Below are positions 3 through 36,500 of a DNA stretch of 64,000 nucleotides, piece by piece. The stretch spans positions 34,769 through 98,768 of IMG/VR virus record IMGVR_UViG_3300020442_000016; one strand, written 5' to 3'. Below the pieces are notes generated by a model. The model was not told the origin of the DNA, ran no database searches, and saw only the letters and a list, made by a program, of their open reading frames with translations. The DNA is from a virus. Each line of letters begins with the position of its first letter. Within the stretch, counting starts at the first letter, position 1. Both the position numbers and the translations under genes were made by a program.

Positions 3-1535
3 AAGCAGTTTCCTGATATTGAAATTGCTCTAGTTGAATCTGATAAAAAACCCACTATTGGTGTGGGTGAAAGTACGTTGGGGCATTTCAATCGTTACCT
101 CCTCCACATGGAGTTAGAGGATGAAGATTGGATGCCCTATTGTAATGCAACGTATAAAACATCCATTGCATTTAGAAACTTTAAGCACGGTAAGGGTGAG
201 AGATTCCAGTATCCGTTTGGTGGACTAGCATATCAAGAACCATATAGGACTGACATTCAGAGATTCTATGAGTTGCAGATCCTGCATCCTGAATTATATC
301 CTGATGATGAGTTTGCTCGCTTTTGGAATCCATCAACATTGCTGACTGAGCAACAGAAGATTGCTAAAACAGGCATCGATGGTATGATGTGGGACCATAA
401 TAACGACAGCGCATATCATTTTGACGCTGAGTTGTTTGGTATCTATTTGAAAGAGCATCATTGTCAACGTGTCCAGCATGTGGTTGGTCATGTGGATCAT
501 GTTGTTAAGACTGAAGATGGATATATTAAAGCGATTGTAACTGCTGAGGGTAGTTACATCGAAGCGGACATGTATATTGACTGCACAGGATTTAAGTCAC
601 TACTCCTTGAAGGATTCATGGGTAGTGAGTGGGAATCATTCAAAGATGTGCTATTCAATGATAGAGCAGTAGCAACACAGATTCCATACAAGAATCGTGA
701 AACTGAAATGGATACCTATACTGATTGTGATGCACAGTCAGCAGGGTGGGTATGGAATATCCCGTTGTGGAATCGTGTTGGCACGGGATATGTTTACTCA
801 TCTGATTACATCAATGAGTGTGAAGCAGAGCAAGAATTTAGAGAGTATTTGAGTGAGCGATATTCGCCCGAGATTGCCCAAAATGCTGAAATGCGTCACA
901 TTAAGATCAAGCATGGTAAGCATAAAGAGGCATGGGTTAAGAATGTTGTGGGTATTGGATTGTCCTATGGTTTCCTAGAACCATTGGAATCTACTGGTCT
1001 CATGACTACACATGAGAATATTCTATTCTTTGCTAATGCACTGGGACGCCGTAATGGTCTACTGACTGATGTTGATCGTAAGTCTTTCAACTTCACAGTG
1101 GATAAGGTGCTGGAGAATATGAAACTATTCGTTGCTCAGCATTATTATCTGACACAACGTCAGGATAATAAGTATTGGCGTGATGTTACCAACATTGAGT
1201 TGGGACATGGTGAGTGGAGATTGGGCACAGAATATTCTACGCTTCAGTCTAAGCAGGAATACTATAACCTACTTGACAGAGCAACAAATAAATTCTATGA
1301 TGGTGACACCTTTGGTGGTTTGCTGTATATCTCAGCAGGTCAAGGTTACCGACCTATATCTCAGTGGGACTTCAAAGTAAGATGTAAGAATGTCCCAATG
1401 CATTATGGTCAAGTAACTAGCACTCATGAGTGGTATCAGAAGGAAAAGCAAAGACTGTTGGATATCATTGATGATATGCCTACACATTATGAATATCTAA
1501 AGGATCGTATTTATGGCGAAGAAACCGTGGATTAG
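3..1535 (+). CDS. Flavin-dependent (tryptophan-type) halogenase, 5'-truncated by window edge
   Basis: The reading frame is open from the first bases of the window, so the N-terminal Rossmann GxGxxG motif lies upstream and is not seen; the GTG at 63 is internal. The visible part starts in the conserved GVGES/T segment. Numbering from that GTG, it keeps the lysine equivalent to the catalytic Lys of PrnA-type halogenases (K32, in an NATYK context), the diagnostic WxWxIP motif (W229, W231, I233, P234) and the EPLEST segment with the catalytic Glu (about E309). Family enzymes use FADH2, O2 and halide to make a hypohalous species that halogenates aromatic carbons; a reductase partner is needed and none is visible here. 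A cyanophage relative, VirX1 of Syn10, is known to halogenate varied aromatics. The gene overlaps the next one by 23 bases and opens an oxygenase-rich operon. The substrate is unknown. Confidence 0.93.
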   Translation, partial: KQFPDIEIALVESDKKPTIGVGESTLGHFNRYLLHMELEDEDWMPYCNATYKTSIAFRNFKHGKGERFQYPFGGLAYQEPYRTDIQRFYELQILHPELYPDDEFARFWNPSTLLTEQQKIAKTGIDGMMWDHNNDSAYHFDAELFGIYLKEHHCQRVQHVVGHVDHVVKTEDGYIKAIVTAEGSYIEADMYIDCTGFKSLLLEGFMGSEWESFKDVLFNDRAVATQIPYKNRETEMDTYTDCDAQSAGWVWNIPLWNRVGTGYVYSSDYINECEAEQEFREYLSERYSPEIAQNAEMRHIKIKHGKHKEAWVKNVVGIGLSYGFLEPLESTGLMTTHENILFFANALGRRNGLLTDVDRKSFNFTVDKVLENMKLFVAQHYYLTQRQDNKYWRDVTNIELGHGEWRLGTEYSTLQSKQEYYNLLDRATNKFYDGDTFGGLLYISAGQGYRPISQWDFKVRCKNVPMHYGQVTSTHEWYQKEKQRLLDIIDDMPTHYEYLKDRIYGEETVD

Positions 1536-2334
1536 ATTCTACTCAATCGAGAAGGGTTTATCACAAAGATTCCCGTGGATTGCATCGCGTAAGTTGTCGC
1601 GACCATGGAGAGTTAAAGCACAGAAAGAGTTATCTAAGGATCCAGTTACCCGTTGTCCAGCATTAAAACTGCAACGCATGGTGCAGATGTCTAAGGTAAC
1701 TAATCAACCCACTATCTTTCCAATGCATGCTGCAACTTGCCCAGCATTGACAGGTGTAATGGATAGTGGTTTTGTGATGACTGCTGCATATGATTTCGTT
1801 ATCTCCATGGAAAATGGAGAAATGTTTTTCATGTCTAAAGGTGAAAGAATTCATTTACATTCACCTGAGCAGACTGATGGTATGCGTGAGTATATTAGTG
1901 CCAAACCTATTCACCCTGTTGTAATTAAGTTACAACAACCATGGAGAGTCCATGCACATAAAGATGTATGCTTCTTGCAGTTGCCAGTAACATATCACAA
2001 AGAGGAGCGATTCTCTGTTGCTACTGGTATTGCAGATCCTACATATTCATATGAGATCAATTTACAACTCTTTTGGCATATGCTAGAGGATGGACAATAT
2101 CTCATTGAAGCGGGCACACCACTCGCACAGTGGATACCTATCCACAGAGATTATCTCAATCCGAGTAACTTCAACGTTGAGATAGAAGATGCAAATGATG
2201 ACGATTATGTTGCTGAGGATTATTGGCAATATCATATGAGAAACACGTTTGCAGAATTACAACCACTACAAGTGAGAAAGAAAATACACCAATTCATTGT
2301 CTCACTAAATAAAAACAGCAAGAGGTTTGAGTAA
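1513..2334 (+). CDS. Uncharacterised 273-aa protein, possibly DUF6065-like
   Basis: I do not recognise a characterised function. The protein has a basic N-terminus and a CPALK segment near residue 48. A later stretch contains PWRVH, a GIADPTYSYE-like segment and an AGTPLAQWIP-like segment. That order of motifs (CPA, an aromatic core, a PW segment, then GTPlaq..P) reminds me of the DUF6065 family, but this is a memory-based match and not secure. It has no signal peptide or membrane span. The ATG overlaps the halogenase gene by 23 bases, which implies translational coupling and a shared role with the halogenase or the downstream oxygenases. It could recognise or present the substrate of those enzymes, which is inference only. 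Confidence 0.85.
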   Translation: MAKKPWIRFYSIEKGLSQRFPWIASRKLSRPWRVKAQKELSKDPVTRCPALKLQRMVQMSKVTNQPTIFPMHAATCPALTGVMDSGFVMTAAYDFVISMENGEMFFMSKGERIHLHSPEQTDGMREYISAKPIHPVVIKLQQPWRVHAHKDVCFLQLPVTYHKEERFSVATGIADPTYSYEINLQLFWHMLEDGQYLIEAGTPLAQWIPIHRDYLNPSNFNVEIEDANDDDYVAEDYWQYHMRNTFAELQPLQVRKKIHQFIVSLNKNSKRFE

Positions 2335-2336
2335 TC

Positions 2337-2786
2337 ATGTCTGACAACACTTTGGGTAACCTTGAATCGACATCGCGTAATGTCAAGGAAATCACAGAAT
2401 ATGACATCGACAAGGTGGCAGGAGTTGAGACCACCGAAGAAGTCAGGGAAAAACTTGAAGCAACTAAAATTGAACCAGGAGTGCTAATCTCCTATGATCA
2501 ACTGGTTGTTAATTTCCTACAACAATATGAAGATGCTAAAGAGGATCTTCTCAAGATGCAGTCTGCACTTGATAACCTGCACTACACATCTACAGTGACT
2601 AAGATTTCACTGAAAGAGATGCAGGATAAGAAAGATTTTATGCATCAACTCCACGGTGCTATTGAAGCGCTGTATCTTTATCAGAAGCATGTTGATCCCA
2701 ACGTGACTGATAAACCATGGACATTTGAAGACCCTGAATATGATGAAACCACAATCACTGCCGACCCCACCACACAGGAAGGTTGA
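2337..2786 (+). CDS. Hypothetical acidic helical protein (149 aa)
   Basis: No family is recognised. The protein is acidic and mostly predicted helical, with a likely coiled-coil stretch around residues 55-125 (repeated E/K/L pattern ending in a Leu/Tyr-rich EALYLYQKH segment). It has an acidic, Thr-rich tail. It begins 3 bases after the stop of the preceding gene and its 3' end overlaps the next oxygenase gene, so it belongs to the same operon. A CTAAATA box 26 bases upstream, inside the end of the preceding gene, resembles a T4-late promoter and may allow separate late expression. Confidence 0.8.
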   Translation: MSDNTLGNLESTSRNVKEITEYDIDKVAGVETTEEVREKLEATKIEPGVLISYDQLVVNFLQQYEDAKEDLLKMQSALDNLHYTSTVTKISLKEMQDKKDFMHQLHGAIEALYLYQKHVDPNVTDKPWTFEDPEYDETTITADPTTQEG

Positions 2787-3396
2787 TCTACTATTTCCCA
2801 CACCATTATGGACATTTGATGGGTGTGGGTTAGATACAAAAGAAATTACAGATTTCTGTTATGTAATTAAGGACGAAGGTCCTGGTAGAAAGGTAAGTAA
2901 TATCGGTGACAATGCATATCAGTCACTAGATTTTATGCCCTCCATCCTACCCCGTACGCCCCTGTATGCCCTCTATAATAAGATTATGGAGTGTGCATAC
3001 TCTGCTGCCGATGAATGGGGTTTCCAAGGGTATAAACTAGACATGGGTAATCTCTGGATTAATATCAATGGGAGAGCAGCATCTAACATGGTGCACACTC
3101 ATCCTGGTTGTATATTGTCTGGAGTTTATTATGCTAAACTACCAGCATGTTGTGAGGGTAGTCTCGTGTTGTGTGATACCTATGAGAGACAACACATGAA
3201 ACAGTATTGGGCGGATAAAGGTAATATCAATAAGTATGATGATCTGAATAAGGATGAGCACACTGTTTATCCTAAGGAAGATAGTATGCATATCTTTCCT
3301 GCATGGGTGCCACATTATGTGGATCCAAATATGAATCCTGATGGTGATGATCGTATTAGTCTCAGTTTCAACCTCAGAGTGAGGCAGTTTCGATGA
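2743..3396 (+). CDS. Putative 2OG-Fe(II) oxygenase, TIGR02466-like
   Basis: The sequence opens with an LLFPTPLW segment typical of the TIGR02466 group of putative 2-oxoglutarate/Fe(II) oxygenases. It carries the His-rich strand HTHPGCILSGVYY near residue 118 and a distal FPAWVPHYV segment whose His (about 191) would complete the iron site. An Arg followed by ISLSFN near residue 204 would bind 2-oxoglutarate. Family members hydroxylate proteins or small molecules, but the substrate here is unknown. Start choice is uncertain: ATGs occur at 2740 and 2743 and a TTG at 2725, and all overlap the preceding gene by about 44-62 bases. The stop overlaps the next ATG by 4 bases (ATGA), so the genes are translationally coupled. 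Confidence 0.85.
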   Translation: MKPQSLPTPPHRKVDLLFPTPLWTFDGCGLDTKEITDFCYVIKDEGPGRKVSNIGDNAYQSLDFMPSILPRTPLYALYNKIMECAYSAADEWGFQGYKLDMGNLWININGRAASNMVHTHPGCILSGVYYAKLPACCEGSLVLCDTYERQHMKQYWADKGNINKYDDLNKDEHTVYPKEDSMHIFPAWVPHYVDPNMNPDGDDRISLSFNLRVRQFR

Positions 3397-4064
3397 ATTA
3401 TATCCAGTTGGATGATGTTGTAGCACCGACATCTTACTCACGACTCCATGCACTTGTTACAGGTGTAGAATTTCCATGGTTTTTTCATGCTAAGGATGTA
3501 ACTTATCAGACTAATGGTGAATTTACATTTGGTGGACAAGATCTATTCGAACCTCCCAAAGAGTATAGATTGCCTGGTTTTTTTCATGCTGTTATTAAGA
3601 CTGATCAAGGTCCAGTTTCGCCCTACTTTGCCCTAATTGAAACAGCAGTGCTCAATTCTATTCAAGATAGATTGGGTGTTGAATGTCAATTCTTCCGTGC
3701 AATTTGGAGATTGACATTAAATGCTGGTGACAGAGATGGACACACCACAGCACATGTTGATCATGATGATGATCACTACACTGCAATATATTATTTGAAT
3801 GATTGCTCAGGTGATACTGTATTGTTTGATCAATACGATGACCCTAAAGACTTCGATGGTAATGTAAGTGAGCGATGGTTAAAAGGTAGGAAACAACCTT
3901 ATACTATTAACAGGAGACAGACACCTAAAGCAAATAGTGCTATTATATTTGATGGTCATCAATATCATGCTGGCACACCTCCACAGGGTGACGATGCATG
4001 GAGAATAGTGTTAAACATAAACTTTAAGACACATGAGCATATCTTTCCTGCCACATCAACTTAG
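3393..4064 (+). CDS. 2OG-Fe(II) dioxygenase with complete HxD...H...R site
   Basis: This 223-aa protein shows the full facial triad of the prolyl-4-hydroxylase-like 2OG-Fe(II) fold: H121-x-D123 inside a run of His and Asp followed by an AIYYLND strand, distal H192, and R204 in an RIVLNINF strand for 2-oxoglutarate. It would be a soluble, Fe(II)-dependent hydroxylase or desaturase of unknown substrate. The start overlaps the upstream oxygenase stop by 4 bases and the 3' end overlaps the next gene by 32 bases. The position between other oxygenases in one transcript suggests successive oxidations of one target or several related targets. Confidence 0.88.
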   Translation: MNYIQLDDVVAPTSYSRLHALVTGVEFPWFFHAKDVTYQTNGEFTFGGQDLFEPPKEYRLPGFFHAVIKTDQGPVSPYFALIETAVLNSIQDRLGVECQFFRAIWRLTLNAGDRDGHTTAHVDHDDDHYTAIYYLNDCSGDTVLFDQYDDPKDFDGNVSERWLKGRKQPYTINRRQTPKANSAIIFDGHQYHAGTPPQGDDAWRIVLNINFKTHEHIFPATST

Positions 4065-4731
4065 AGACACTAAAGAGTGGGATGTCGATGACAAACCACA
4101 CATGTGGGAGGGCATCGCTAAAGATATTAGTGATGTTTTATCATGGGATAAAGTAGAGTATTGTCTCAACAATCCTCAATTCTTCCGTGTCAATCTACCT
4201 CATAATAATATCCCTCATTATTATAGAAACTGGGGAGACAAAGAAGTACCTGATCCCAAAGATATATTTGAAGCAGTTAACAATGGTAGGACATTTATCA
4301 TTGAAAACTATTCATGGTGTGATAAGACTAGCAGACAATTAATGGATGCATTTGAATCAGTGTTTCCATCATGTCAGGGTGAAATGCATGTGTATGGTGG
4401 CACATCAACTCATCAAAGTTTCCCTATTCATCAAGACTTAGCGAATAACTTTATTATTCAGTGTGAAGGTGAAACTCACTGGACTGTATATAATGATAGG
4501 GCAAGCAATCTACTCTCACATCGTGAGACTATGGATGCAAAACTCAGTGAAAATTTGCTCAACGTTGCCATCGATTGCACTCTTAAAAAAGGTGATGTGC
4601 TCTACATCCCTGCTAGATGTTATCATCGAGCACAACCAGACTCGCGTCGTCTCTCACTCAGTGTCCCGATGATGCATTTATGTCAATCAAAACCATACGA
4701 TAGAAAGTATTATGAATTACGAAAGACTTAA
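4033..4731 (+). CDS. JmjC/cupin-like Fe(II) oxygenase
   Basis: This 232-aa protein has a JmjC/cupin_4-like C-terminal half. It contains H133-x-D135 followed by a long beta strand (FIIQCEGETHWTVY), and then a KKGDVLYIPARCYHRA segment whose H198 completes the metal site. The LKKGDvLYiP...yHra pattern is characteristic of cupin-type protein hydroxylases such as the RoxA/YcfD ribosomal oxygenases. Known members hydroxylate protein side chains, including Arg and His of ribosomal proteins. Here the target is unknown, and a virion or host protein is possible. The gene overlaps its upstream neighbour by 32 bases and its downstream neighbour by 20 bases. Confidence 0.85.
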   Translation: MSISFLPHQLRDTKEWDVDDKPHMWEGIAKDISDVLSWDKVEYCLNNPQFFRVNLPHNNIPHYYRNWGDKEVPDPKDIFEAVNNGRTFIIENYSWCDKTSRQLMDAFESVFPSCQGEMHVYGGTSTHQSFPIHQDLANNFIIQCEGETHWTVYNDRASNLLSHRETMDAKLSENLLNVAIDCTLKKGDVLYIPARCYHRAQPDSRRLSLSVPMMHLCQSKPYDRKYYELRKT

Positions 4732-5356
4732 TCCCTATGCATATGTGTTTAAGTCTAAAAGTACGATCGACTTTGAGACTGTTAAACCTAGAGTATTAGC
4801 ATACCTAGATTATGCAAACACACAGCATCAAACATCACTAGAGAAAGATGGCGGTCGATCTTCAGTGCACTTGAGTGTGACTGACCCTCCACATGCTTGG
4901 GATGAATTCACACCTTTTAGAGAAAAGATGTTTGAAGTGTGTGATGAAGTATGGAAGGAATGGAAGTTACAACCGTGTATCAAACAAGTAAAGGGATCAT
5001 GGATTAATGAGCATCCACAGGGTGCATGGACTGATTCACATCATCACCACGGATGTCATTTAGTGGTGTCATGGTATATGAAACAACCTAAAAATAGTGG
5101 TCGGTTAATGATACAAAACCCACTCACACCATACAAGATGAGCGAACCTACTGATGTTTTGTATGATGCTATGGGTATGGATTGGATCCCCATTGATACT
5201 GAAGAAGGTGACTTCTTAGTATTTCCAGGTTGGTTAAAGCATAAAACAGAAACCAACAATTCCTCAGAAATGCGTTATATTATGAGTGTCAACATAAGTG
5301 CATATCGCTTTTATGGTGAAAATGAAATGCCATTTCAACACAATAGAGTGACATAA
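4712..5356 (+). CDS. Putative 2OG-Fe(II) oxygenase, TIGR02466-like
   Basis: This is the second TIGR02466-type oxygenase of the operon (214 aa). It shows a His cluster at 110-113 preceding a LVVSWYMK strand, a long linker, then GDFLVFPGWLKH with H177 and R188 in RYIMSVNIS. These match the expected iron- and 2-oxoglutarate-binding positions. The middle of the protein (residues 140-160) differs clearly from the copy at 2743, so the two are paralogues rather than a recent duplication. It ends the operon; the following 59 bases hold a possible promoter for the next small gene. Confidence 0.85.
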   Translation: MNYERLNPYAYVFKSKSTIDFETVKPRVLAYLDYANTQHQTSLEKDGGRSSVHLSVTDPPHAWDEFTPFREKMFEVCDEVWKEWKLQPCIKQVKGSWINEHPQGAWTDSHHHHGCHLVVSWYMKQPKNSGRLMIQNPLTPYKMSEPTDVLYDAMGMDWIPIDTEEGDFLVFPGWLKHKTETNNSSEMRYIMSVNISAYRFYGENEMPFQHNRVT

Positions 5357-5915: not shown

Positions 5916-5941
5916 GGGGGTTGAGACACCCCCTTTTTTTG
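5916..5941 (+). terminator. Rho-independent terminator
   Basis: A GGGGGT / ACCCCC stem (5916-5921 with 5928-5933) with a 6-base loop is followed by an uninterrupted T run (5934-5940). It lies right after the stop at 5906. The loop side of the stem contains the -35 box of the next promoter. Confidence 0.9.
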
Positions 5942-5949
5942 TGTATAAT
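5921..5949 (+). promoter_or_regulatory. Sigma70-type promoter for the helicase gene
   Basis: TTGAGA (5921-5926), a 17-base spacer and a perfect TATAAT (5944-5949) are present. The -35 box is inside the terminator hairpin of the upstream unit, so the two elements physically overlap. The predicted transcript start is about 5956, ahead of the helicase start at 5972. Confidence 0.8.
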
Positions 5950-5971
5950 AGGTGCAACGACACGAAAAGCA

Positions 5972-7210
5972 TTGATCACTCTCCGTCCCCACCAGTCACG
6001 AGCACTCGACGCTATGAGTGCCACTGGTCACGGTCAGGTGATCGTCCCGACTGGTGGTGGTAAAACCATCATCATGATCGAGCACGCTAAGCACCTGCTC
6101 AACGAAGGTCCTAAGACCATTGTTGTGGTTGCACCTCGCATTCTTCTTGCTAATCAACTTAGCGAAGAATTCATGCAGTTTATCCCTGCAACATGGACAC
6201 ACGTTGCACACTGCCACAGTGGTGAAACTCATCATTTCTCTACAACTAAGAGCGACAAACTTGCTCTCTTCAATAATACTGCACGAGCAGCAAATGAGTC
6301 TTGCATTATCTTCACGACGTATCATTCTTTGCGTCGTGTTGTAGATAGTGGCATCGATGTAGATGCTATTTACTTCGATGAAGCACACAATGCTTGCACT
6401 AAGCACTTCTTCGTAAGTGTTGCTGCTATGTCATTCAGTGCAGATAAGAAGTATTTCTTCACTGCTACACCTCGTGTCAGCAATAAGCATGACCGTGGTA
6501 TGAATAACCGTGAGATCTTCGGTCCAGTGATTGAGAATGTCCCTGCACCCGAGTTGATCAAAGGCGGTCACATTCTTCGTCCTACTATTGTCCCTTTCGA
6601 GACTGATTACACAGTAGACAAGAAACAACCCCATCTGGTCCACTCTACTACAGTGCAGGATATCATCGACAACCTCGATGAATCACATGCTGCTAAAGTG
6701 TTGGTTGCCGTGCCATCTTCTCGTGTGCTTGGCAACATCCTCGGACATACTGATCTACTCTTTCAACTGAAAGATCGTGGTTATGATGTCCTCCACGTTA
6801 CCTCTAAATTTGGAGCATATGTCAACGACCAAAAAGTCAACCGTGAAAAGTTTTTTGAAACCCTCAATGCGTGGGGTAAAGAAGATGACAGAAAATTCGT
6901 CATCTTTCATTACAGCATCCTTTCGGAAGGTATCAACGTTGCTGGTCTCACTCACACGATTCTCTTGCGAAATCTTAACGTCGTCGAGATGGCACAAACT
7001 ATCGGAAGGGTTATCCGACTTGATAAGCGCGATGCCGCTGGTATTGCGAGCGGTGATATTTCTCCTTGCTCTTGGAGTTGCTATCACAAACCCACTGGTT
7101 ACGTTAGTGTGCCTGTCCATAGCAATCATGGTGCCGCAGTTATCAAAAGACTGCAAAGGGTGACTGATGAGATCTTTGTGAAGGGCGTCCCTGCTACTGC
7201 CCTCGTGTGA
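5972..7210 (+). CDS. SF2 DEAH-box helicase
   Basis: This is a superfamily 2 helicase of about 412 aa. Motifs in order: a LRPHQ Q-motif-like start, Walker A PTGGGKT (residues 26-32), DEAH (136-139), TATP motif III (164-167) and QTIGRVIR motif VI (342-349). An ATP-driven DNA or RNA helicase/translocase is therefore clear. It resembles the UvsW/RecG-like helicases of T4-type phages, but I cannot assign uvsW with certainty. The start is the TTG at 5972: it follows the predicted transcript start and places LRPHQ at the N-terminus as in relatives, whereas the longer open frame begins inside the terminator. A terminator follows the stop. The likely role is remodelling of replication or recombination intermediates. 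Confidence 0.9.
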   Translation: MITLRPHQSRALDAMSATGHGQVIVPTGGGKTIIMIEHAKHLLNEGPKTIVVVAPRILLANQLSEEFMQFIPATWTHVAHCHSGETHHFSTTKSDKLALFNNTARAANESCIIFTTYHSLRRVVDSGIDVDAIYFDEAHNACTKHFFVSVAAMSFSADKKYFFTATPRVSNKHDRGMNNREIFGPVIENVPAPELIKGGHILRPTIVPFETDYTVDKKQPHLVHSTTVQDIIDNLDESHAAKVLVAVPSSRVLGNILGHTDLLFQLKDRGYDVLHVTSKFGAYVNDQKVNREKFFETLNAWGKEDDRKFVIFHYSILSEGINVAGLTHTILLRNLNVVEMAQTIGRVIRLDKRDAAGIASGDISPCSWSCYHKPTGYVSVPVHSNHGAAVIKRLQRVTDEIFVKGVPATALV

Positions 7211-7220
7211 CAATCTACAA

Positions 7221-7254
7221 GGTGCACACTAATTGTTGTGCACCTATTTTTCTT
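7221..7254 (+). terminator. Rho-independent terminator after helicase
   Basis: A perfect 8-bp stem GGTGCACA / TGTGCACC (7221-7228 with 7237-7244) with an 8-base loop is followed by TATTTTTCTT. It sits 10 bases after the helicase stop. Confidence 0.85.
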
Positions 7255-7264
7255 GGGTTATATT
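7236..7264 (+). promoter_or_regulatory. Possible promoter of the nuclease/methylase pair
   Basis: TTGTGC (7236-7241), 17 bases, then TATATT (7259-7264); an overlapping TATTAT at 7261 is an alternative -10. The -35 overlaps the terminator stem, repeating the arrangement seen at 5921. It lies 23 bases before the ATG at 7287. Confidence 0.5.
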
Positions 7265-7286
7265 ATATACATAACACACAAGGCAC

Positions 7287-7889
7287 ATGACTAACACACA
7301 ACTCTCCGACGCTCTCTTCAGAATCATCCCTAAAGCAGTCAACCTTACCACACAGCGTGTTTCTAAAATGCTTGCTATTGGTAGTGGTGGCACAAAACCT
7401 GACCTTGATTCATTCTTCGGTGAAGATAACACAGTTGACAAGACTAAGTTTCTTGCTAACATCTTCAATCCTGCACTTGAGAATGCAGCACAAGAGTTAG
7501 GTGTTGATTACATTACTGAGGAAACTGTTGGATATGATGCTATACTATTAGGAGAGGAGATTGAGAATAAGATGTCTCTAGGATCTAGCACATCTTCATT
7601 CGCTACTGGTAACAACCACAGCAAGACTAAAGTTGATAAGATCTTTTGTGTGAAACTCACACAGGATGGTAACAACTTCCCTCAGATCTTCGCTTGCATT
7701 GTTGACCTATCTCTCGCACAAAATCCTAAGACAGGATGGACAGATTCAGTTACTAAGACTGGTAAGAATAACAATGGATTCTCAACTCTCAGAGTCCACA
7801 ATGAGGATCTAATCTGCATCACTCCGATCTATGGTAAAGTAAGAAGGACTCAGAAATTCATTCACACTGTATATGAAACTATCTCTTGA
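7287..7889 (+). CDS. Candidate PD-(D/E)xK nuclease, possible type II restriction endonuclease
   Basis: No named family is recognised, but the 200-aa protein has the layout of a type II restriction enzyme. D84 is in a GYDAILLG strand, E93-x-K95 follows in an EIENKMS strand, and then comes a GNNHSKTKVDKIFCVKL segment (109-124). In PD-(D/E)xK nucleases the Asp, Glu and Lys coordinate Mg2+ and catalyse DNA cleavage, and the ExK strand is often followed by a similar Gly/Asn/Lys-rich turn. Its 3' end overlaps a DNA methyltransferase gene by 17 bases, a typical restriction-modification layout. The pair has its own promoter and follows a terminator. A different nuclease or a non-catalytic DNA-binding role remains possible. 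Nuclease identity is inference from motif and context. Confidence 0.55.
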   Translation: MTNTQLSDALFRIIPKAVNLTTQRVSKMLAIGSGGTKPDLDSFFGEDNTVDKTKFLANIFNPALENAAQELGVDYITEETVGYDAILLGEEIENKMSLGSSTSSFATGNNHSKTKVDKIFCVKLTQDGNNFPQIFACIVDLSLAQNPKTGWTDSVTKTGKNNNGFSTLRVHNEDLICITPIYGKVRRTQKFIHTVYETIS

Positions 7890-8712
7890 TGATACATATC
7901 TCATGAGTTGTATCGATGGGATGCAACTTATGGATGAGGAGAGTGTTGACTTAGTTGTCACCTCTCCTCCTTATGATGACTTGAGGACATACAATGATTC
8001 CAGTAAGTGGGATCACAATGTGTTTATGCAGGTTGCTGATAACCTCACCCGCGTATTGAAGCAGGGTGGGGTTATTATGTGGAATGTGAATGACGCTACG
8101 ATTAAAGGTAGTGAGTCTGGATCTAGTTTCCGTCAGTGTCTATATTTCATGGATAAGTGTGGTCTACGACTACACGATACTATGATATATGAGAAGACTG
8201 GCACAGCATTCGCGTCAGGTCCTAAGAGTGTAAGATATACTCAAATCTTTGAGTATTGTTTTATACTATCCAAGGGTAAACCCAAGACTATTAATCTTAT
8301 TCAAGATAAGAAGAATGCATGGGCAGGTTACACCAGTTTTGGCAATGCTAAGACTCGAAAGAAGGATGGCACAATGCACGATCCTAATCGAAAGAGTAAT
8401 GTCATCCGTGAGTATGGTGTAAGGACTAACATTTGGAAGATTAAAAACTCAGGTGGTTTTGGTCAATCATCCAAAGCAAGTTACAAACATCCTGCCACAA
8501 TGCCTGAGGAATTGGCAAGGGGTCACATTCAAACATGGTCAAATCCAAACGATCTAGTTTTGGATCCTTTTATGGGTGCTGGCACCACTGCACAGGTTGC
8601 ACTTGAAGAGAATAGACATTTTATTGGATTTGAGATTGATGAAATGTATCATGGCATGTGTGTTGAGCGTGTGCTACCATTTAAGGATAATCTAATCACT
8701 CGTCTATCATGA
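7873..8712 (+). CDS. Beta-class DNA methyltransferase (N4-cytosine or N6-adenine)
   Basis: This 279-aa enzyme carries the catalytic motif IV TSPPY at residues 30-34 and the AdoMet-binding motif I DPFMGAGTT at 231-239. The order IV before I, with the recognition region between, marks the beta class. The SPPY form favours N4-cytosine methylation, but N6-adenine is not excluded. The C-terminal segment after motif I (FIGFEIDEMY) is also typical. The length is normal for a complete stand-alone methylase. The upstream gene overlaps it by 17 bases and resembles a nuclease. On its own it could protect phage DNA from host restriction; with the partner it could form a restriction-modification pair. The next gene overlaps its stop by 4 bases. 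Confidence 0.92.
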   Translation: MKLSLDDTYLMSCIDGMQLMDEESVDLVVTSPPYDDLRTYNDSSKWDHNVFMQVADNLTRVLKQGGVIMWNVNDATIKGSESGSSFRQCLYFMDKCGLRLHDTMIYEKTGTAFASGPKSVRYTQIFEYCFILSKGKPKTINLIQDKKNAWAGYTSFGNAKTRKKDGTMHDPNRKSNVIREYGVRTNIWKIKNSGGFGQSSKASYKHPATMPEELARGHIQTWSNPNDLVLDPFMGAGTTAQVALEENRHFIGFEIDEMYHGMCVERVLPFKDNLITRLS

Positions 8713-8990
8713 TTCACGAAGTGCCCGAAGGTTACTCACATTATAGTTGTGAGGAATTTAACAAAACATATGATCGTGTGTGGTTACACCACTCGCGAGA
8801 ATACATATATGCAGAGGGTGCAGAGGTCAAAACAGTTTGGGGATTTATCAAGCGTAAAACTGGTGCAATTCATTCACCAATAAATGCAAAGAAGGTCGGT
8901 AAGATCATCGATCCCGATCAAACTACGCCCTACACTGCTATGCCACGCCCTAAAGTCAGTCCACTCATGCTATTGTGTGATTATGATTAA
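8709..8990 (+). CDS. Hypothetical protein (93 aa)
   Basis: This is a basic 93-aa protein with aromatic-rich strands in the first half (YSHYSCEEF, YDRVWLHHSREYIY) and a Pro-rich end. No family is recognised. The ATG overlaps the methyltransferase stop by 4 bases, so it is probably co-translated with it; any link to methylation is only positional. Its own 3' end overlaps the next ATG by 8 bases. Confidence 0.72.
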   Translation: MIHEVPEGYSHYSCEEFNKTYDRVWLHHSREYIYAEGAEVKTVWGFIKRKTGAIHSPINAKKVGKIIDPDQTTPYTAMPRPKVSPLMLLCDYD

Positions 8991-9240
8991 AGATCGTGCG
9001 ATCGTGACCCCCAAGACCCCTAAGGCAAGGGAAATTCTAACAAATCACTTAAATAATAAGAGTGAGGTTAGACTTGAGGCATATAAGATGCGATCAGGCA
9101 TTAAAAGGTGCTTTGTCAGTGCTATCGACAACCCAGACTTTTGGTTTTGGGTAGATAAGGACTGGGATGAAGACTGGGACATTTACATTATTAACGATGA
9201 CAATACCAAGTTTCACACAGACATCGGACGCCCCATATGA
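8983..9240 (+). CDS. Hypothetical protein (85 aa)
   Basis: I start this at the ATG at 8983, which overlaps the preceding stop by 8 bases; the longer open frame upstream lies entirely inside the preceding gene. The product has a basic N-terminal half and a Trp/Asp-rich C-terminal half (FWFWVDKDWDEDWD). No family is recognised. It is part of a run of overlapping small genes. Confidence 0.7.
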   Translation: MIKDRAIVTPKTPKAREILTNHLNNKSEVRLEAYKMRSGIKRCFVSAIDNPDFWFWVDKDWDEDWDIYIINDDNTKFHTDIGRPI

Positions 9241-9400
9241 CCGTCACTGGTATAAAGTATGGTGCACTGATAACTCAGTTAAAATACTACACTCCTATCA
9301 AGAAGTGCAAGAAGTGTGGTGGAATTTTAAGCACTTCTTATCACATGTAGAGGTCATCGATGCCAAACGAAACAAACAATCAGGATCAGGATTCGGGTGA
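9197..9400 (+). CDS. Small hypothetical protein (67 aa)
   Basis: The frame from about 9230 reads as a plausible globular protein rich in Trp and His (HWYKVWCTD, EVWWNFKHFL). The start is uncertain: the ATG at 9197 overlaps the previous gene by 44 bases, and no closer ATG, GTG or TTG is well placed. The 3' end overlaps the next gene by 41 bases. It has no known family. Confidence 0.5.
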   Translation: MTIPSFTQTSDAPYDRHWYKVWCTDNSVKILHSYQEVQEVWWNFKHFLSHVEVIDAKRNKQSGSGFG

Positions 9401-30500: not shown

Positions 30501-33500
30501 ACTACATTACTTCTATCAGTCTAGATGCCGAAGAGCGTATCTACCTCGCAGGTTATACGAATACTAACTCACCTGATCCTGATGATATTTGGGTTATTCA
30601 GGCAGACCAAGATGGTGACGTTGTTGAGAAGCGTAAGTTTGCCTCTATTGATGGTAATGAAAGACTTGAGCAAATTGCTGATCTTGGTAATAACAGATTC
30701 TTCTGGGTTGGTGTTAACGAAGATAATGATGACTGCTTATATGGTGTCTTCTTCTATGATGGTGCAAACCTTGAGATGGAATATGCCAAGCAGGTTACTG
30801 TTACTGGTGGTTATGTAAGAAATCCAAGATTCGTCATCGACGAATATCAAGATGTCTTCATCCTTTGGGATTTCTATAATAATGCTACTAGCGTTTGGGA
30901 GAAAGTCCAGCTCAGCAGAATTTCACTTGCCAATACATCAACTGGTGGATCCTTTACATGGTCTAAGACTATTGCTCTTACACCAATGGATTCTGTTACA
31001 CCTATCAGTATCCAACATGCTGGTCTCAACCTAGATGAGTTTGGTAATATCAGTGTTGTTACTGATATGAAGTATAAGCAGAATGTCCGAGTGGCAGGTC
31101 TGACATACTTTAAGTATGACGGCACAGTGCTCCGTCAATCCTATCTTGAGGATACTAATAGCGCTGGTTTCTCCGTTAAGTCTCACGTTGTTGATTCTTC
31201 TGGTGACCCAATCATGGTTTGTGAGCGTCAGCTTCCAGATCAGGCTGCAGCATTCAGATTTACTGAAGATGGAAATAATTGGAATGAAGATTTCACTAAG
31301 CGTAAGTTGGCACCTCTTTCAGTTATTGATACTGCTGCAAGTGCTTGGGAGCGTGATACATCTGTATATAAGTGGGGTCCTGCATCACTCAAACTCAAGA
31401 CATCTAATGCTGTAAAGGCAACTAACTTTAATAGATCTGTCCAAGCAGAATGGTGTGTTGAAGGTTGGTATTCTATGGATGGCACCAATCATGGTGTTAA
31501 CCATCAACCTAAGATGATGACCGTTGTGCCTGTCGCAGGTAAGACAGCACATTTCATTATCGATGGTGATTCAACATCTGCAAACTATCAGAAAGTCCTA
31601 CTTTACTTTGATGGTGTTGAGGTTGCTTCCTCTACTACTGCATACAACTGGACTACATTTGCATCTAGTGCATGGGTCCATCTAGCATTCTCTAAAGAGA
31701 ATCCTACTGTTGGTAGTTACACTTATAGAGTGTTTGTCAACGGCGTTGCAATGATTGAATTGGTCTCTGTTGAAGATATCGGTCTTGATGACGTTTACTG
31801 GGCAAGTGATTCTACTCCTAGTGCTTCCGATGCCTTCCTTGGTAACCTTGACGATCTCGTTGTTTCTGAGACAGCAAAATATACTGCAACTTATACTGTC
31901 CCTGCTGATTATGTTGAGATTACAACTCAAGCATCTGATGTTGCAATCTATAAGGTTGACAGACTGCATACTGAGCGTGGTGATAAGACACTTACAACTC
32001 TCAACAACTATACACAATTCTCATTCCAAGAAAACTTCCTTGTTAATGTCCAGACTGTAAGCAATGGTGCTATTACTAACTGGGAAGAAGGTCCTGGCGG
32101 TCTGCAGATTCTTGACATGTCGTATACTATTGCGACTATGATTCCAGCAACAGTTGCTCTGTCTGCTAATGTTGAAATCTTTGGATCTAAGACATCTACT
32201 GTCCCAACACCTAGAGGTCAGAAACTTAAACTGTCTTCTAACGTTGTGCCAAAATTCTATATTAGAGATGCACTGTATAGTAAGATTGATAACGTTAAGG
32301 AATTTACTTTCAACCAAGATTGTAAATTCACAAAAGGTAGTATTATCCAACAGGTGAATGCTGCTGGTGTTGTCCAAGCATACGGCACTATTGTTGAATC
32401 TCCTGCAGGTGGAATCAATACTCCTGGTCTCGGCACCAAATATAAGGTTGGTAAGATCTTCGGCACATTTAATAATACAGATCTGTTTAAGAATGATCTT
32501 GATGAGATCAATCATATCACTGGTGTTTACTTCGATACTGAAGAAGCAGAGATTCCATGGGCATCAAATACTGCATATGCTCAGGGTGATAGAGTTTATA
32601 GTGATAAGAAAATCTATGAGGCACAGGGTGCTGGCACATCTGGCACAATTACACCTATCCACACTGCTGGTGTTGCTTCTGATGGTGTAATTAACTGGGC
32701 ATTCATTGATGATTCAGGTAAGTTTACTATTGATTCTGCAAACCATCCATATCAGATTCCTGAATACCAAGGATCCGATATGATTGAATGGGATGCACAC
32801 ATCCTGTATGCACCTGGTTATAGAATTTGGAAAGGTCTTAATGTGTATGAAACCACCAATGGTGGTGTTTCTGGCACAACCCCTCCCACTCATACAACTG
32901 GCACAGTTAACGACGGTAACGTAGATTGGACATTTGTTGAGACTAGAGAGGCACTTGGCACATATGCTAGATTCATGGCATATGATGAAGATTTCTATAC
33001 AGTTAGAATTGAAGAGATTCAACCTGGATCTACTTACATTCCAGGCGATGTTATCAGTATTAGATCTGATAATATTGAAGTTGATGAAACTGAAAAGATC
33101 CTTAGAGTTGTAAATCTTCCTTCAGTTAAAAAGATTCGTGTAACTTCTACAGTTAAGAAAGATATTATTCGCACCGCTGAGGTCCGCACTGATCAAGTTT
33201 ACGCAACATCAGTTACTAGACATAATTATAATGACGGTGAGATTCTTTATACAACTGGATTCTCTCAGACAGCATTTAACGGATCATTCTTTGTTAAAGA
33301 AGTATTTGGTAGTAGAGAATTCACATTTACTATCAGAGATACTGCTGTAGAAGAGCCTGCATTCTTGCAGAGCGCTATTTCTAATGTCAACATTTATGCT
33401 AAGCACCCAACTCTGACATTTACCAGAGGTCATGCATATGTGTTTGATCTAGCAGATCCTTCTAACTTTGGTTATTACTTGTCCTTCTCTCAGGACAACC

Positions 33501-36500
33501 AGTATAAACTAGAGTATTCATTCAACAATATTACTAGAGAAGGCACACCTGGTATTCCAACAACCAGCACTGCACCTTTTGTTAAGTTTACTGTATTGGG
33601 TGACGTTACAAATATTTCTTACTACTTTGATCCATCAAGAGTTGGAGCTGATTCTCCTGTTGGTCCTAGGTCGTTTATTGATGTCATCAAGACACCTTAT
33701 GATGGCACATTTACAATTTCTGAAATTATTACAGATACTGAGTTTAGATTCCCACTCATTAGAGAGCCTGAGCAAACATCTGCTGAGGTTGGCACTGATG
33801 AGTTTGACAATGCATACTCATATTATTCAACGACATCTACCAAAGCAGTTGGTCCTATCAACAGTATCAAACTGGTATCACCTGGTGGATTCTATAAGAG
33901 ACTTCCTATCATCTCTGATATTGCATCTTATCGTCAAATTGAGAAGATCAACATCACAGATGGTGGCACAGAATATGCACCTGGCGTCTACTATGATGTA
34001 GGCATCCTTGGTGATGGTGAAGGTGCTAAGGCAACTATCACTGTTGAGATTGATGATGAGACAGGATCAGGCACCATTACAGGTGTTGCTATTACAGATC
34101 CTGGCAAAGGCTACACTACCGCTTCGATTGATATTGATGCTATTCCTGGCATTCTTGGTCCAACTCTTGCTGGATCTGGTGCTGCATTAGAAGTGGTGAT
34201 CCCCGAAGAGGGATCTGGCGCGTCTGTTTTCCTCACTGGTAGGAATATTGGTAAGATTAAGAGACTGAAGAATAATGAGTTTGGTTATGGTTATTCTCAT
34301 GACTATACTCTACGTCCTGAAATCTCCTTCCCAGTTAACCTACAACTCTTTAATACTTCGATCCTAACTCAGATTAAGATCACCAATCCAGGTTCTGGTT
34401 ATACCTCTGCTCCTGCCGTTGTCATTGAAGGTGGCGGTGGTGAAGGTGCACAGGCAGAAGCGATTGTTAAAAACAACCGTCTTTCTGAAATTGTAATTAA
34501 GAATCCAGGTCAAGGTTATTCATCTGAGCCCATAGTCACACTTAAGTCTGAGTTTAACTACGTTGTTAACCTCGACCTCAACTATCTGCAGTTTAACTTC
34601 CCTCACGGTATCACCACTGGTGCTGCTGTCCAATTCCGTGCTGATGATGTTGGCACAACTGAGGGTGAGCTCCCCAAACCTAGCAGCGTTGGTTTGACCT
34701 CTTTGGTTGCAGGTCAGATCTACTATGCAATCGCTGGTAACCAAAACTCTCTTGAATCTGATCAAATCAGATTTGCTTTGACACCTCAAGCAGCAGCAAC
34801 TGGTGACTTTATTACCTTCTTGACTCAAGGTAGTGGTCGTCAAGTCCTTCTTACTGAGGTCTTTGGAGGCACAGCAGAAGCAATCGTTTCTACTTCCAGA
34901 TTCTTGGAAGGCGAAGAGGTATTCCAAGGTCCTAGCCTTGAGCAAGCAACTGCAACCGCTGTTGTGTCTACAAACACTGGTTGGCAGATTGGTCCTAAGA
35001 TTCTAAAACTTGTCAACAACCAAGGTGATTTTGTCAAAGGTGAAAAAGTTACAGGCACAGTTTCTAAGGCATCTGGTGTTATCGATAACTTGAATATTGC
35101 TAAGGGCGTCCTGAATATTGGATCTCTTACCAAGACACCTGGTAAATTTATTGATGACGTTGGTAAACCTTCTGAAATTGTCCAGAAAATTCAAGACTCT
35201 TTCTTCTACCAAAACTTCTCTTATGTTATTAAGTCTGAGATTCCTATCACAGAGTGGAAAACTCAGATTCTTGAAAACAACCACCCTGCAGGTTTCAACC
35301 TCTTCGGTCAATTACAACTGACTGGTGGTAAAGACGTTTCTGGTCGTAAGATCGGCACTGAGTTTATTAAGAATGTTAATATCTTTGATTATGCAAATGT
35401 CAATCAGATTACATCCTTCGGTGCTGCACAACCTATCTACACCGATTACAACAACACTGAGGTGCTTTTCCGTAAGAGAAGACTGACTTCTTCTGAGGAA
35501 ATTCTTACTTCTATTGTTAAGAAACTGGATGATATCTCTGATCAGTTTGATGGTGTCCAGAAGAGTTTCCCACTTACAGTGGAGAATGAAAGTGTCATTG
35601 TTAAAGATGACCAGTTGATGATTACGATTAACGGTATCATCCAGTCTCCTAGAATCTCTTACAGTATTGTTGGTGGTAACATCGTATTTGCTGAAGCACC
35701 TAAACCACCTTCTAAGGTTGTTTATAGAAATATCAGAGTTACACCTATTGAGATCTATAGAATTGAGTTGTATCAAGTTGGTGGTATTTTCCCAACATTA
35801 GGTCAGCAAATTCAAGGTCAGGCAAATGATACATTTGCAACTGTGATTGACACAGGAGCAAGTAGTATTGATGTTATCAATATCACTGGCACTCCATTCC
35901 AACTTAATGAGCAATTAAGAAGAGGCACTATATTCTCAGCATTGGTCCAATCTGTGACTCTGCTGAATTCAGATACCATCTTTGAATTTGGTGAGTCTAT
36001 TACCAATCTCAGTGGTGATACTGCTAAGATTGAAGAGACTAACCTCAATGACGGTGTTGTTACTGATGCTTTGGTTATCAGTAAAACTTCTGGCACATCT
36101 GACGAAGAAACTGGTCAGTTTAACATCAGATTGAATGATTACGTCTACTCTGCATCTACTAAGATTGCAGGTCAGGTTTCCTTCATCTCCCCATACTTAG
36201 ATCCTAATACTGGTGAGCCAGTTGACACTCTAACAATTAACGCTGGATCAACATTCTTTGGTCTGCTGTTTGAGCGTCTGCTTTCTATCACCAATCCTAA
36301 CGTTGTCTTGGATGATATTTCCAAGTCTACAATTACACCTACTGAATTGTATAATTCAGATAATAGAATCAACGCTGACTTCCTTGACTTTGAAGATGTA
36401 AGATCTTCTGAGGTTGTCATGACAGATCTTACTGGTGGACAATTCTCAGAAGGTGAGTTGATTCGTAACAAGAAAGTTGATTATATTAACGAAGTTACTA

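Follow-up and report, generated by a model that had tools for sequence, protein, structure and literature searches.

The 64,000-base window analyzed here (bases 34769–98768 of the 98,768-base virus record IMGVR_UViG_3300020442_000016) opens with a block of genes encoding a flavin-dependent halogenase, three 2-oxoglutarate (2OG)-Fe(II) oxygenases, a JmjC-type oxygenase, and two further proteins, named here U1 and u2. On balance, we somewhat favor the view that these genes, together with adhesin genes lying just upstream, form a tail-fiber adhesin maturation cassette, adding halogens and hydroxyl groups to the phage's own receptor-binding tips. The reasons are the shared gene row and the reciprocal linkage of adhesin and halogenase (56/64 and 42/45 loci, and 12/12 phage records); the fact that this linkage outlasts the loss of other partners, and that other glycine-rich proteins take the adhesin's place; the match of the adhesin to the receptor-binding fiber gp24 of cyanophage Pam3, and the proximity of the JmjC protein to protein hydroxylases; and the conservation of aromatic and histidine residues in the adhesin, together with the active site of the related halogenase VirX1, which is open to bulky substrates. 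The chances are about even that many phages carry such a dedicated tip-editing cassette, in which aromatic halogenation and hydroxylation by Fe(II) oxygenases add a chemical layer to host recognition, and that this is the native job of VirX1. What the data show is the gene content, the intact catalytic residues, the fold of the adhesin, and the reciprocal linkage; we infer the adhesin as the substrate, along with the residues modified, what U1 does, and how the phage benefits. The genes of the row are the following (L002 is the locus of the window virus, numbered so that its positions 6927–9391 are record positions 31695–34159; the other positions are those of the window).

Record 31695–34159 (L002 6927–9391), plus strand: three paralogous glycine-rich adhesins of 268–271 amino acids (aa).
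L002 9420–9917, plus strand: small conserved protein of 165 aa (phrog_1787), a possible chaperone.
1–1535 (true start at record position 34702), plus strand: VirX1-type flavin-dependent halogenase of 533 aa, with Lys75, Glu352, and WVWNIP.
1513–2334, plus strand: U1, 273 aa (phrog_7084), with a predicted dUTPase fold whose motifs are changed or missing.
2337–2786, plus strand: u2, 149 aa; many relatives encode a related protein in this block.
2725–3396, plus strand: 2OG-Fe(II) oxygenase (PF13759, E 2.8e-16), starting with TTG at 2725; ATG at 2740 or 2743 is also possible.
3393–4064, plus strand: 2OG-Fe(II)-type oxygenase with HxD...H...R (phrog_274; more weakly phrog_61 and phrog_81).
4033–4731, plus strand: JmjC_2 oxygenase of 232 aa (PF08007, E 3.3e-19, 69.1 bits against a cut-off of 22).
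4712–5356, plus strand: 2OG-Fe(II) oxygenase (PF13759, E 1.2e-14).

The original prediction had described an overlapping, phage-borne operon running from the halogenase to the last oxygenase. All seven of its open reading frames (ORFs) are present on the plus strand between positions 1 and 5356, the successive gaps are −23, 2, −62, −4, −32, and −20 bases, and relatives of the virus were found in the Kyanoviridae. The row, however, extends beyond the window. The halogenase ORF crosses the window edge, beginning 66 bases before it, and upstream of it lie the small gene and the three adhesin genes on the same strand, with gaps of 23, 3, 28, and 16 bases from the first adhesin to the halogenase. 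Because of these tight gaps and the common strand, the row probably begins at the adhesins and not at the halogenase. The earlier impression that no biosynthetic scaffold was visible arose because the window edge cuts the row: the likely substrate genes open the same row just upstream.

The linkage was assessed in loci annotated with profile hidden Markov models built from the proteins of the window virus. Halogenase loci in viral contigs were the best 80 of 570 relatives, 16 of which were left out for having less than 3 kb upstream. In 56 of the remaining 64, all with 3 kb or more upstream, a member of the adhesin family precedes the halogenase by no more than 4.5 kb; after clustering at 90% identity, the figure is 45 of 52. 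Conversely, once nine of 54 adhesin loci with less than 3 kb downstream were set aside, 42 of the 45 adhesin-anchored loci with at least 3 kb downstream hold a halogenase, and the three that do not are the weakest or most fragmentary matches. Of 50,697 phage records, a tblastn search with one adhesin matched 12, every one of which is among the 64 phage records with a halogenase. In three loci (L219, L220, and L225) the block of halogenase, U1, and oxygenases is inverted, with the adhesin still adjacent. In a named set of 19 phage loci plus the window virus, an adhesin is near the halogenase in 10 of 20, and all ten of these loci carry VirX1-like enzymes; of the ten others, eight have more distant halogenases, the VirX1-like exceptions being Sf-CH11 (L011) and S-H35 (L014). 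Because adhesin and enzymes are paired in many different phages, chemical modification of the tail tips by these enzymes is probable.

The same counts would also be produced by hitch-hiking, with the enzymes as cargo in a tail-fiber hot spot, held there by a favored insertion site or by vertical inheritance and sharing no function with the adhesins. In T4-like phages, the tail-fiber regions are established hot spots. In a quick tree, whose labels 'GlyOther' and 'tailOther' the author assigned from locus inspection and annotation, the phage VirX1-like rows formed one group of 64 (support 99), 52 of them adhesin-linked, and the linked rows were clustered (6 changes versus a shuffled mean of 20.6). 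The linkage counts are therefore not independent events, and much of them is inheritance. On the other hand, the inverted blocks remain adjacent to the adhesin, few adhesins of this family lack the enzyme (3/45), and the combination of varied downstream genes with the same core and with other glycine-rich families (L011 and L263, described below) would require repeated coincidence; we regard hitch-hiking as quite unlikely. The sequence CTAAATA, which we take to be a late-promoter motif, occurs 74 bases before the first adhesin gene; it was found for 7 of 46 first adhesins across representatives, compared with 3 of 46 after shuffling, and was dropped as evidence.

From a profile match and a predicted fold, the upstream proteins are identified as tail-fiber adhesins with a glycine-rich domain of the PF21722, Pam3 gp24-like type. 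The adhesin scanned (L002:8585–9388) matched PF21722 at 27 bits, against a cut-off of 24.3, and also phrog_863, which is labelled tail fiber assembly. The adhesin modelled was that of contig L109, one residue off the first adhesin of the window virus, and its model reached a mean predicted local distance difference test (pLDDT) score of 84.7. Its match to Pam3 gp24 (7ypx_A) had a Foldseek E of 1.6e-7 and a Z of 20.7 (root mean square deviation [rmsd] 2.4, 181 aligned, 26% identity), followed by the Bxb1 tail tip (Z 15.8) and the ALK glycine-rich domain (Z up to 9.7). S16 gp38 was not among the rows listed in the fold tables, which excludes nothing. A sequence search of the PDB with the adhesin profile had returned chance matches only, and the identity was later settled by the fold.

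The Pam3 paper proposes that the fiber binds its host receptor through the glycine-rich domain; the fiber gene is paired with that of a chaperone, gp25, which binds the fiber (PMC9608196). The adhesin shares the fold of its C-terminal domain with Pam3 gp24, and the 165 aa protein, which follows the adhesins almost everywhere, may likewise be an adhesin chaperone. Two differences should be noted: the excerpts of PMC9608196 describe no modifying enzymes, and no solved chain matches the sequence of the small protein with an E below 0.35. Across 272 distinct adhesin sequences, the conserved positions include the aromatic residues Y151 (97%), W93 (86%), and Y166 (82%), as well as N176 (99%) and the histidines H181 (92%), H204 (90%), H228 (89%), and H238 (84%).

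As judged from profiles and motifs, the window enzyme belongs to the flavin-dependent halogenase family (PF04820; VirX1/phrog_2928). It matched PF04820 with an E of 1.3e-102 (344.5 bits against a cut-off of 21) and phrog_2928 with an E of 1e-151. Its GGGSAG (GxGxxG) and WVWNIP (WxWxIP) motifs, K75, and E352 bear out the original prediction of an enzyme that keeps its catalytic lysine, glutamate, and WxWxIP, and the catalytic pair is retained in 276 of the 278 aligned relatives spanning both positions. The best solved relative, matched end to end, is VirX1 of cyanophage Syn10 (PDB 6qgm; E 2.7e-138, 465 bits), an orthologue; identity to the Syn10 and Syn9 gene is 44%, and in Syn9 the halogenase has the same place after glycine-rich tail genes. 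VirX1 is a trimer with an open active site that accepts bulky aromatic substrates (PMC8407142). Two of the more distant phage halogenases, those of Syn1 (L020:8995–10431) and S-PM2 (L022:8995–10470), have Gln in place of the catalytic Glu.

VirX1 itself is known from in vitro work, in which it halogenates many small aromatics (PMC8407142). That activity would suit enzymes whose product is a halogenated small molecule (antibiotic-like or derived from a sugar or amino acid), built or decorated to aid the infected host or the phage, with genes that lie beside the adhesins incidentally. Protection by an antibiotic has been proposed (PMC2984593; PMC9964418), as has a halogenated metabolite cluster in S-SSM6a, where a cyanophage halogenase also occurs with 2OG and cupin oxygenases (PMC7824862), and in S-SSM7, a relative of the S-SSM6a type, the halogenase lies by a carbamoyltransferase and sugar genes. 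The S-SSM6a cluster, however, contains carbamoyltransferases and sugar genes (PMC7824862), none of which was identified in the window block, and Pfam and PHROG scans of the ten proteins of the region revealed no scaffold-building enzyme or transport gene. In the quick tree, the distant S-SSM7 halogenase is placed outside the clade of phage enzymes to which the window halogenase belongs, so that the S-SSM7-type cluster may be a separate case. A small-molecule product, which would also leave the reciprocal adhesin link unexplained, appears unlikely.

The four oxygenases foreseen by the original prediction (three of the 2OG-Fe(II) type and one of the JmjC type) have intact catalytic residues, and the general reading of the block as a tailoring cassette for halogenation and hydroxylation is supported. 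In the JmjC family of the protein at 4033, the HxD...H residues H133, D135, and H198 of the JmjC_2 domain are each conserved in 100% of 122 aligned sequences. Its nearest solved relatives are MINA (RIOX2) and NO66 (RIOX1), which are protein histidyl-hydroxylases (E 2e-6), and for this reason a protein substrate is favored. The likeness is confined to the catalytic JmjC_2 domain: the match covers residues of about 100–204, the window protein having 232 aa and the solved chains 442–489 aa, and the full MINA/NO66 architecture beyond the JmjC domain was not found.

The protein at 3393 had no Pfam match at 0.01, and a comparison with the PDB gave ankyrin-repeat matches only, which were judged to be chance. 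In its family, H121, D123, H192, and R204 are each 100% conserved (222 aligned). The family phrog_274 carries the label 'DNA endonuclease V', which has spread to phage records (relatives so labelled include L008:14226–14813, L009:14303–14938, and L017:8444–8998); this label is likely a misannotation, since the fully conserved HxD...H...R arrangement is typical of 2OG oxygenases.

The core of adhesin and halogenase persists where other partners are absent (for example, in L044, L060, L069, and L097). One lineage (L044, L046–L048, L055, L060, L063, L065, L069, L078, L084, L097, and L099) has the adhesins, the small protein, and the halogenase, and lacks both U1 and the JmjC gene. In this L044-type lineage, a protein of 408–441 aa (phrog_1458 for L044, no Pfam family) is encoded between the small protein and the halogenase; by eye, a Cys-containing stretch in the L044 protein (L044:8179–9408) and similar ones suggests a metal site. 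Relatives without the protein at 1513, the JmjC gene, or most oxygenases (S-H35, S-MbCM6, L094, L101, and the L044/L060 lineage) also mean that the grouping does not hold as originally worded, and that the adhesins, not the two unknown proteins, are its constant part. Elsewhere the neighbors differ. In Sf-CH11 (L011), the halogenase and 2OG genes are flanked by two different PF21722 proteins, and in L263, a phage-like contig from a Maricaulis metagenome-assembled genome, a PF21722 protein lies about 270 bases upstream of a row of one oxygenase, U1, two oxygenases, the halogenase, and a further oxygenase. The distant halogenase of S-SRM01 has a tail protein on one side and, on the other, a gene with the annotation adhesin tip, while L096 has no glycine-rich protein and instead two triads of proteins of about 190 aa, the starts of which look tail-fiber-like by eye.

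Of the two proteins of the block highlighted earlier as sharing no known function, u2 was assigned to no family by Pfam and PHROG profile scans. U1 is not featureless: its model (mean pLDDT 92.6) gave 15 Foldseek matches with an E of at most 0.001, all of them dUTPases, the best with a Z of 9.8 (rmsd 3.8, 124 aligned). A PDB sequence search with the U1 profile found nothing up to E 10. The suggested DUF6065 likeness (PF19541) survives as a weak similarity among relatives, 6 of 60 matching at an E of at most 1 (best 0.0025); the U1 of the window virus gave no match. As to whether U1 always travels with the halogenase, all 80 U1-anchored loci (the best 80 of 272) have a halogenase within 3 kb; this did not extend to the distant phage homologues (three with 23–26% identity, of 17 records), as the two examined had no halogenase alongside in the region inspected.

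The fold of U1 raises the possibility that the substrate is a nucleotide or the phage DNA, and that U1 assists by handling nucleotides. By eye, and against the dUTPase motif consensus, U1 has a motif-3-like stretch (GI.DP.Y..E) and a motif-4-like one (AGTPL.Q.IP). However, PVxY stands where motif 2 would have its RSG-like stretch, and inspection by eye showed nothing like motif 5 at the C terminus. The altered motif 2 and the missing motif 5 make a repurposed dUTPase fold more likely than an active dUTPase, as far as the model and motifs indicate. A role in DNA repair has been proposed for cyanophage 2OG enzymes (PMC9146016; PMC3037559); nevertheless, U1 is missing from S-SZBM1, P-RSM6, S-WAM1, and the L044-type lineage, all of which retain adhesin and halogenase, and a nucleotide substrate seems highly improbable.

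Bacterial relatives of the halogenase, with about 28–37% identity to the window enzyme over the matched part, have a protein of 750–1250 aa upstream in 56 of 74 loci, and the four such neighbors tested (L249, L253, L257, and L260) were all TonB-dependent receptors. A bacterial locus of this kind that was tested also has SapC and Cupin_8 neighbors. The resemblance is that of a halogenase and a cupin/JmjC oxygenase beside the gene of a surface protein, the difference being that these loci are chromosomal, with a single receptor; a literature search found no paper on the combination of TonB receptor, halogenase, SapC, and Cupin_8. Such neighborhoods would be in keeping with enzymes that act on the surface or receptor of the host, for instance to prevent superinfection, the adhesin being linked through the same receptor. 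Flavin and 2OG enzymes, however, need cofactors of the cytoplasm, which is also where the adhesins of phages are made; modification of the host surface is accordingly judged very unlikely.

Several observations weigh against modification of the adhesin. The adhesin family is not nearby in 8 of the 64 viral-contig loci and 10 of the 20 named-set loci, and in S-H35, S-MbCM6, L094, L106, and L101, exceptions inspected by eye, there is no tail gene beside the halogenase. The linkage could be hitch-hiking, and the dUTPase-fold partner U1 could point to nucleotides. In the adhesin model, most blocks of the first 80 residues fall below the mean pLDDT, and the conserved aromatic and histidine residues may be structural, as conservation alone is no proof of modification. 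Finally, the name Pam3 is absent from the organisms of the 64 halogenase phage records (60 listed, 64 counted by first word), although Pam3 itself was not examined for a halogenase.

Roles already proposed in the literature for such enzymes are antibiotic or metabolite tailoring, greater stability of host metabolites (PMC10452541), DNA repair, and 2OG and nitrogen signalling (PMC3037559). No link between the halogenase or oxygenases and tail fibers was found in literature searches covering listings and excerpts of the papers cited here and of PMC10436341, PMC12774648, and PMC11288001, although the original VirX1 paper may discuss the context.

Other halogenase loci and neighboring genes are recorded here for completeness. 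In three phage contigs (L179, L181, and L183), three tandem halogenases lie next to U1 and numerous oxygenases encoded on the opposite strand, near genes that by eye look neck-, tail-, and Nudix-like, with no glycine-rich adhesin in view. An assembly contig of Nonlabens xiamenensis (L238) carries the entire cyanophage block, with a 49% identical halogenase, and is probably a phage contig or contamination. In the window, the block is followed by helicase-like (5921–7210) and DNA methyltransferase-like (7873–8712) genes, and genes of P-TIM40 are so annotated at the matching downstream place. Farther on, a single ORF of 6,862 aa occupies 24539–45127 on the plus strand, among tail- and baseplate-like genes.

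If the cassette matures the adhesins, these would be made first, possibly with the 165 aa protein as their chaperone, and modified before assembly. The halogenase, with reduced flavin supplied by the host, would act on exposed aromatic residues of the glycine-rich tip, while the hydroxylation of other side chains, for example histidines, would fall to the 2OG and JmjC oxygenases. U1 might serve as an adaptor or scaffold, and the resulting tip would have altered stability or receptor contact. Phages are known to glycosylate their own virion proteins, which is likewise self-modification, by sugar transfer instead of halogenation and hydroxylation. Should adhesin maturation be correct, a virion protein would bear halogen and hydroxyl groups, the enzymes would offer a means of modifying folded proteins, and host recognition would gain a chemical layer that cannot be read from the adhesin sequence. 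This bears on the native substrate of VirX1-type halogenases and on the purpose of many cyanophage 2OG oxygenases.

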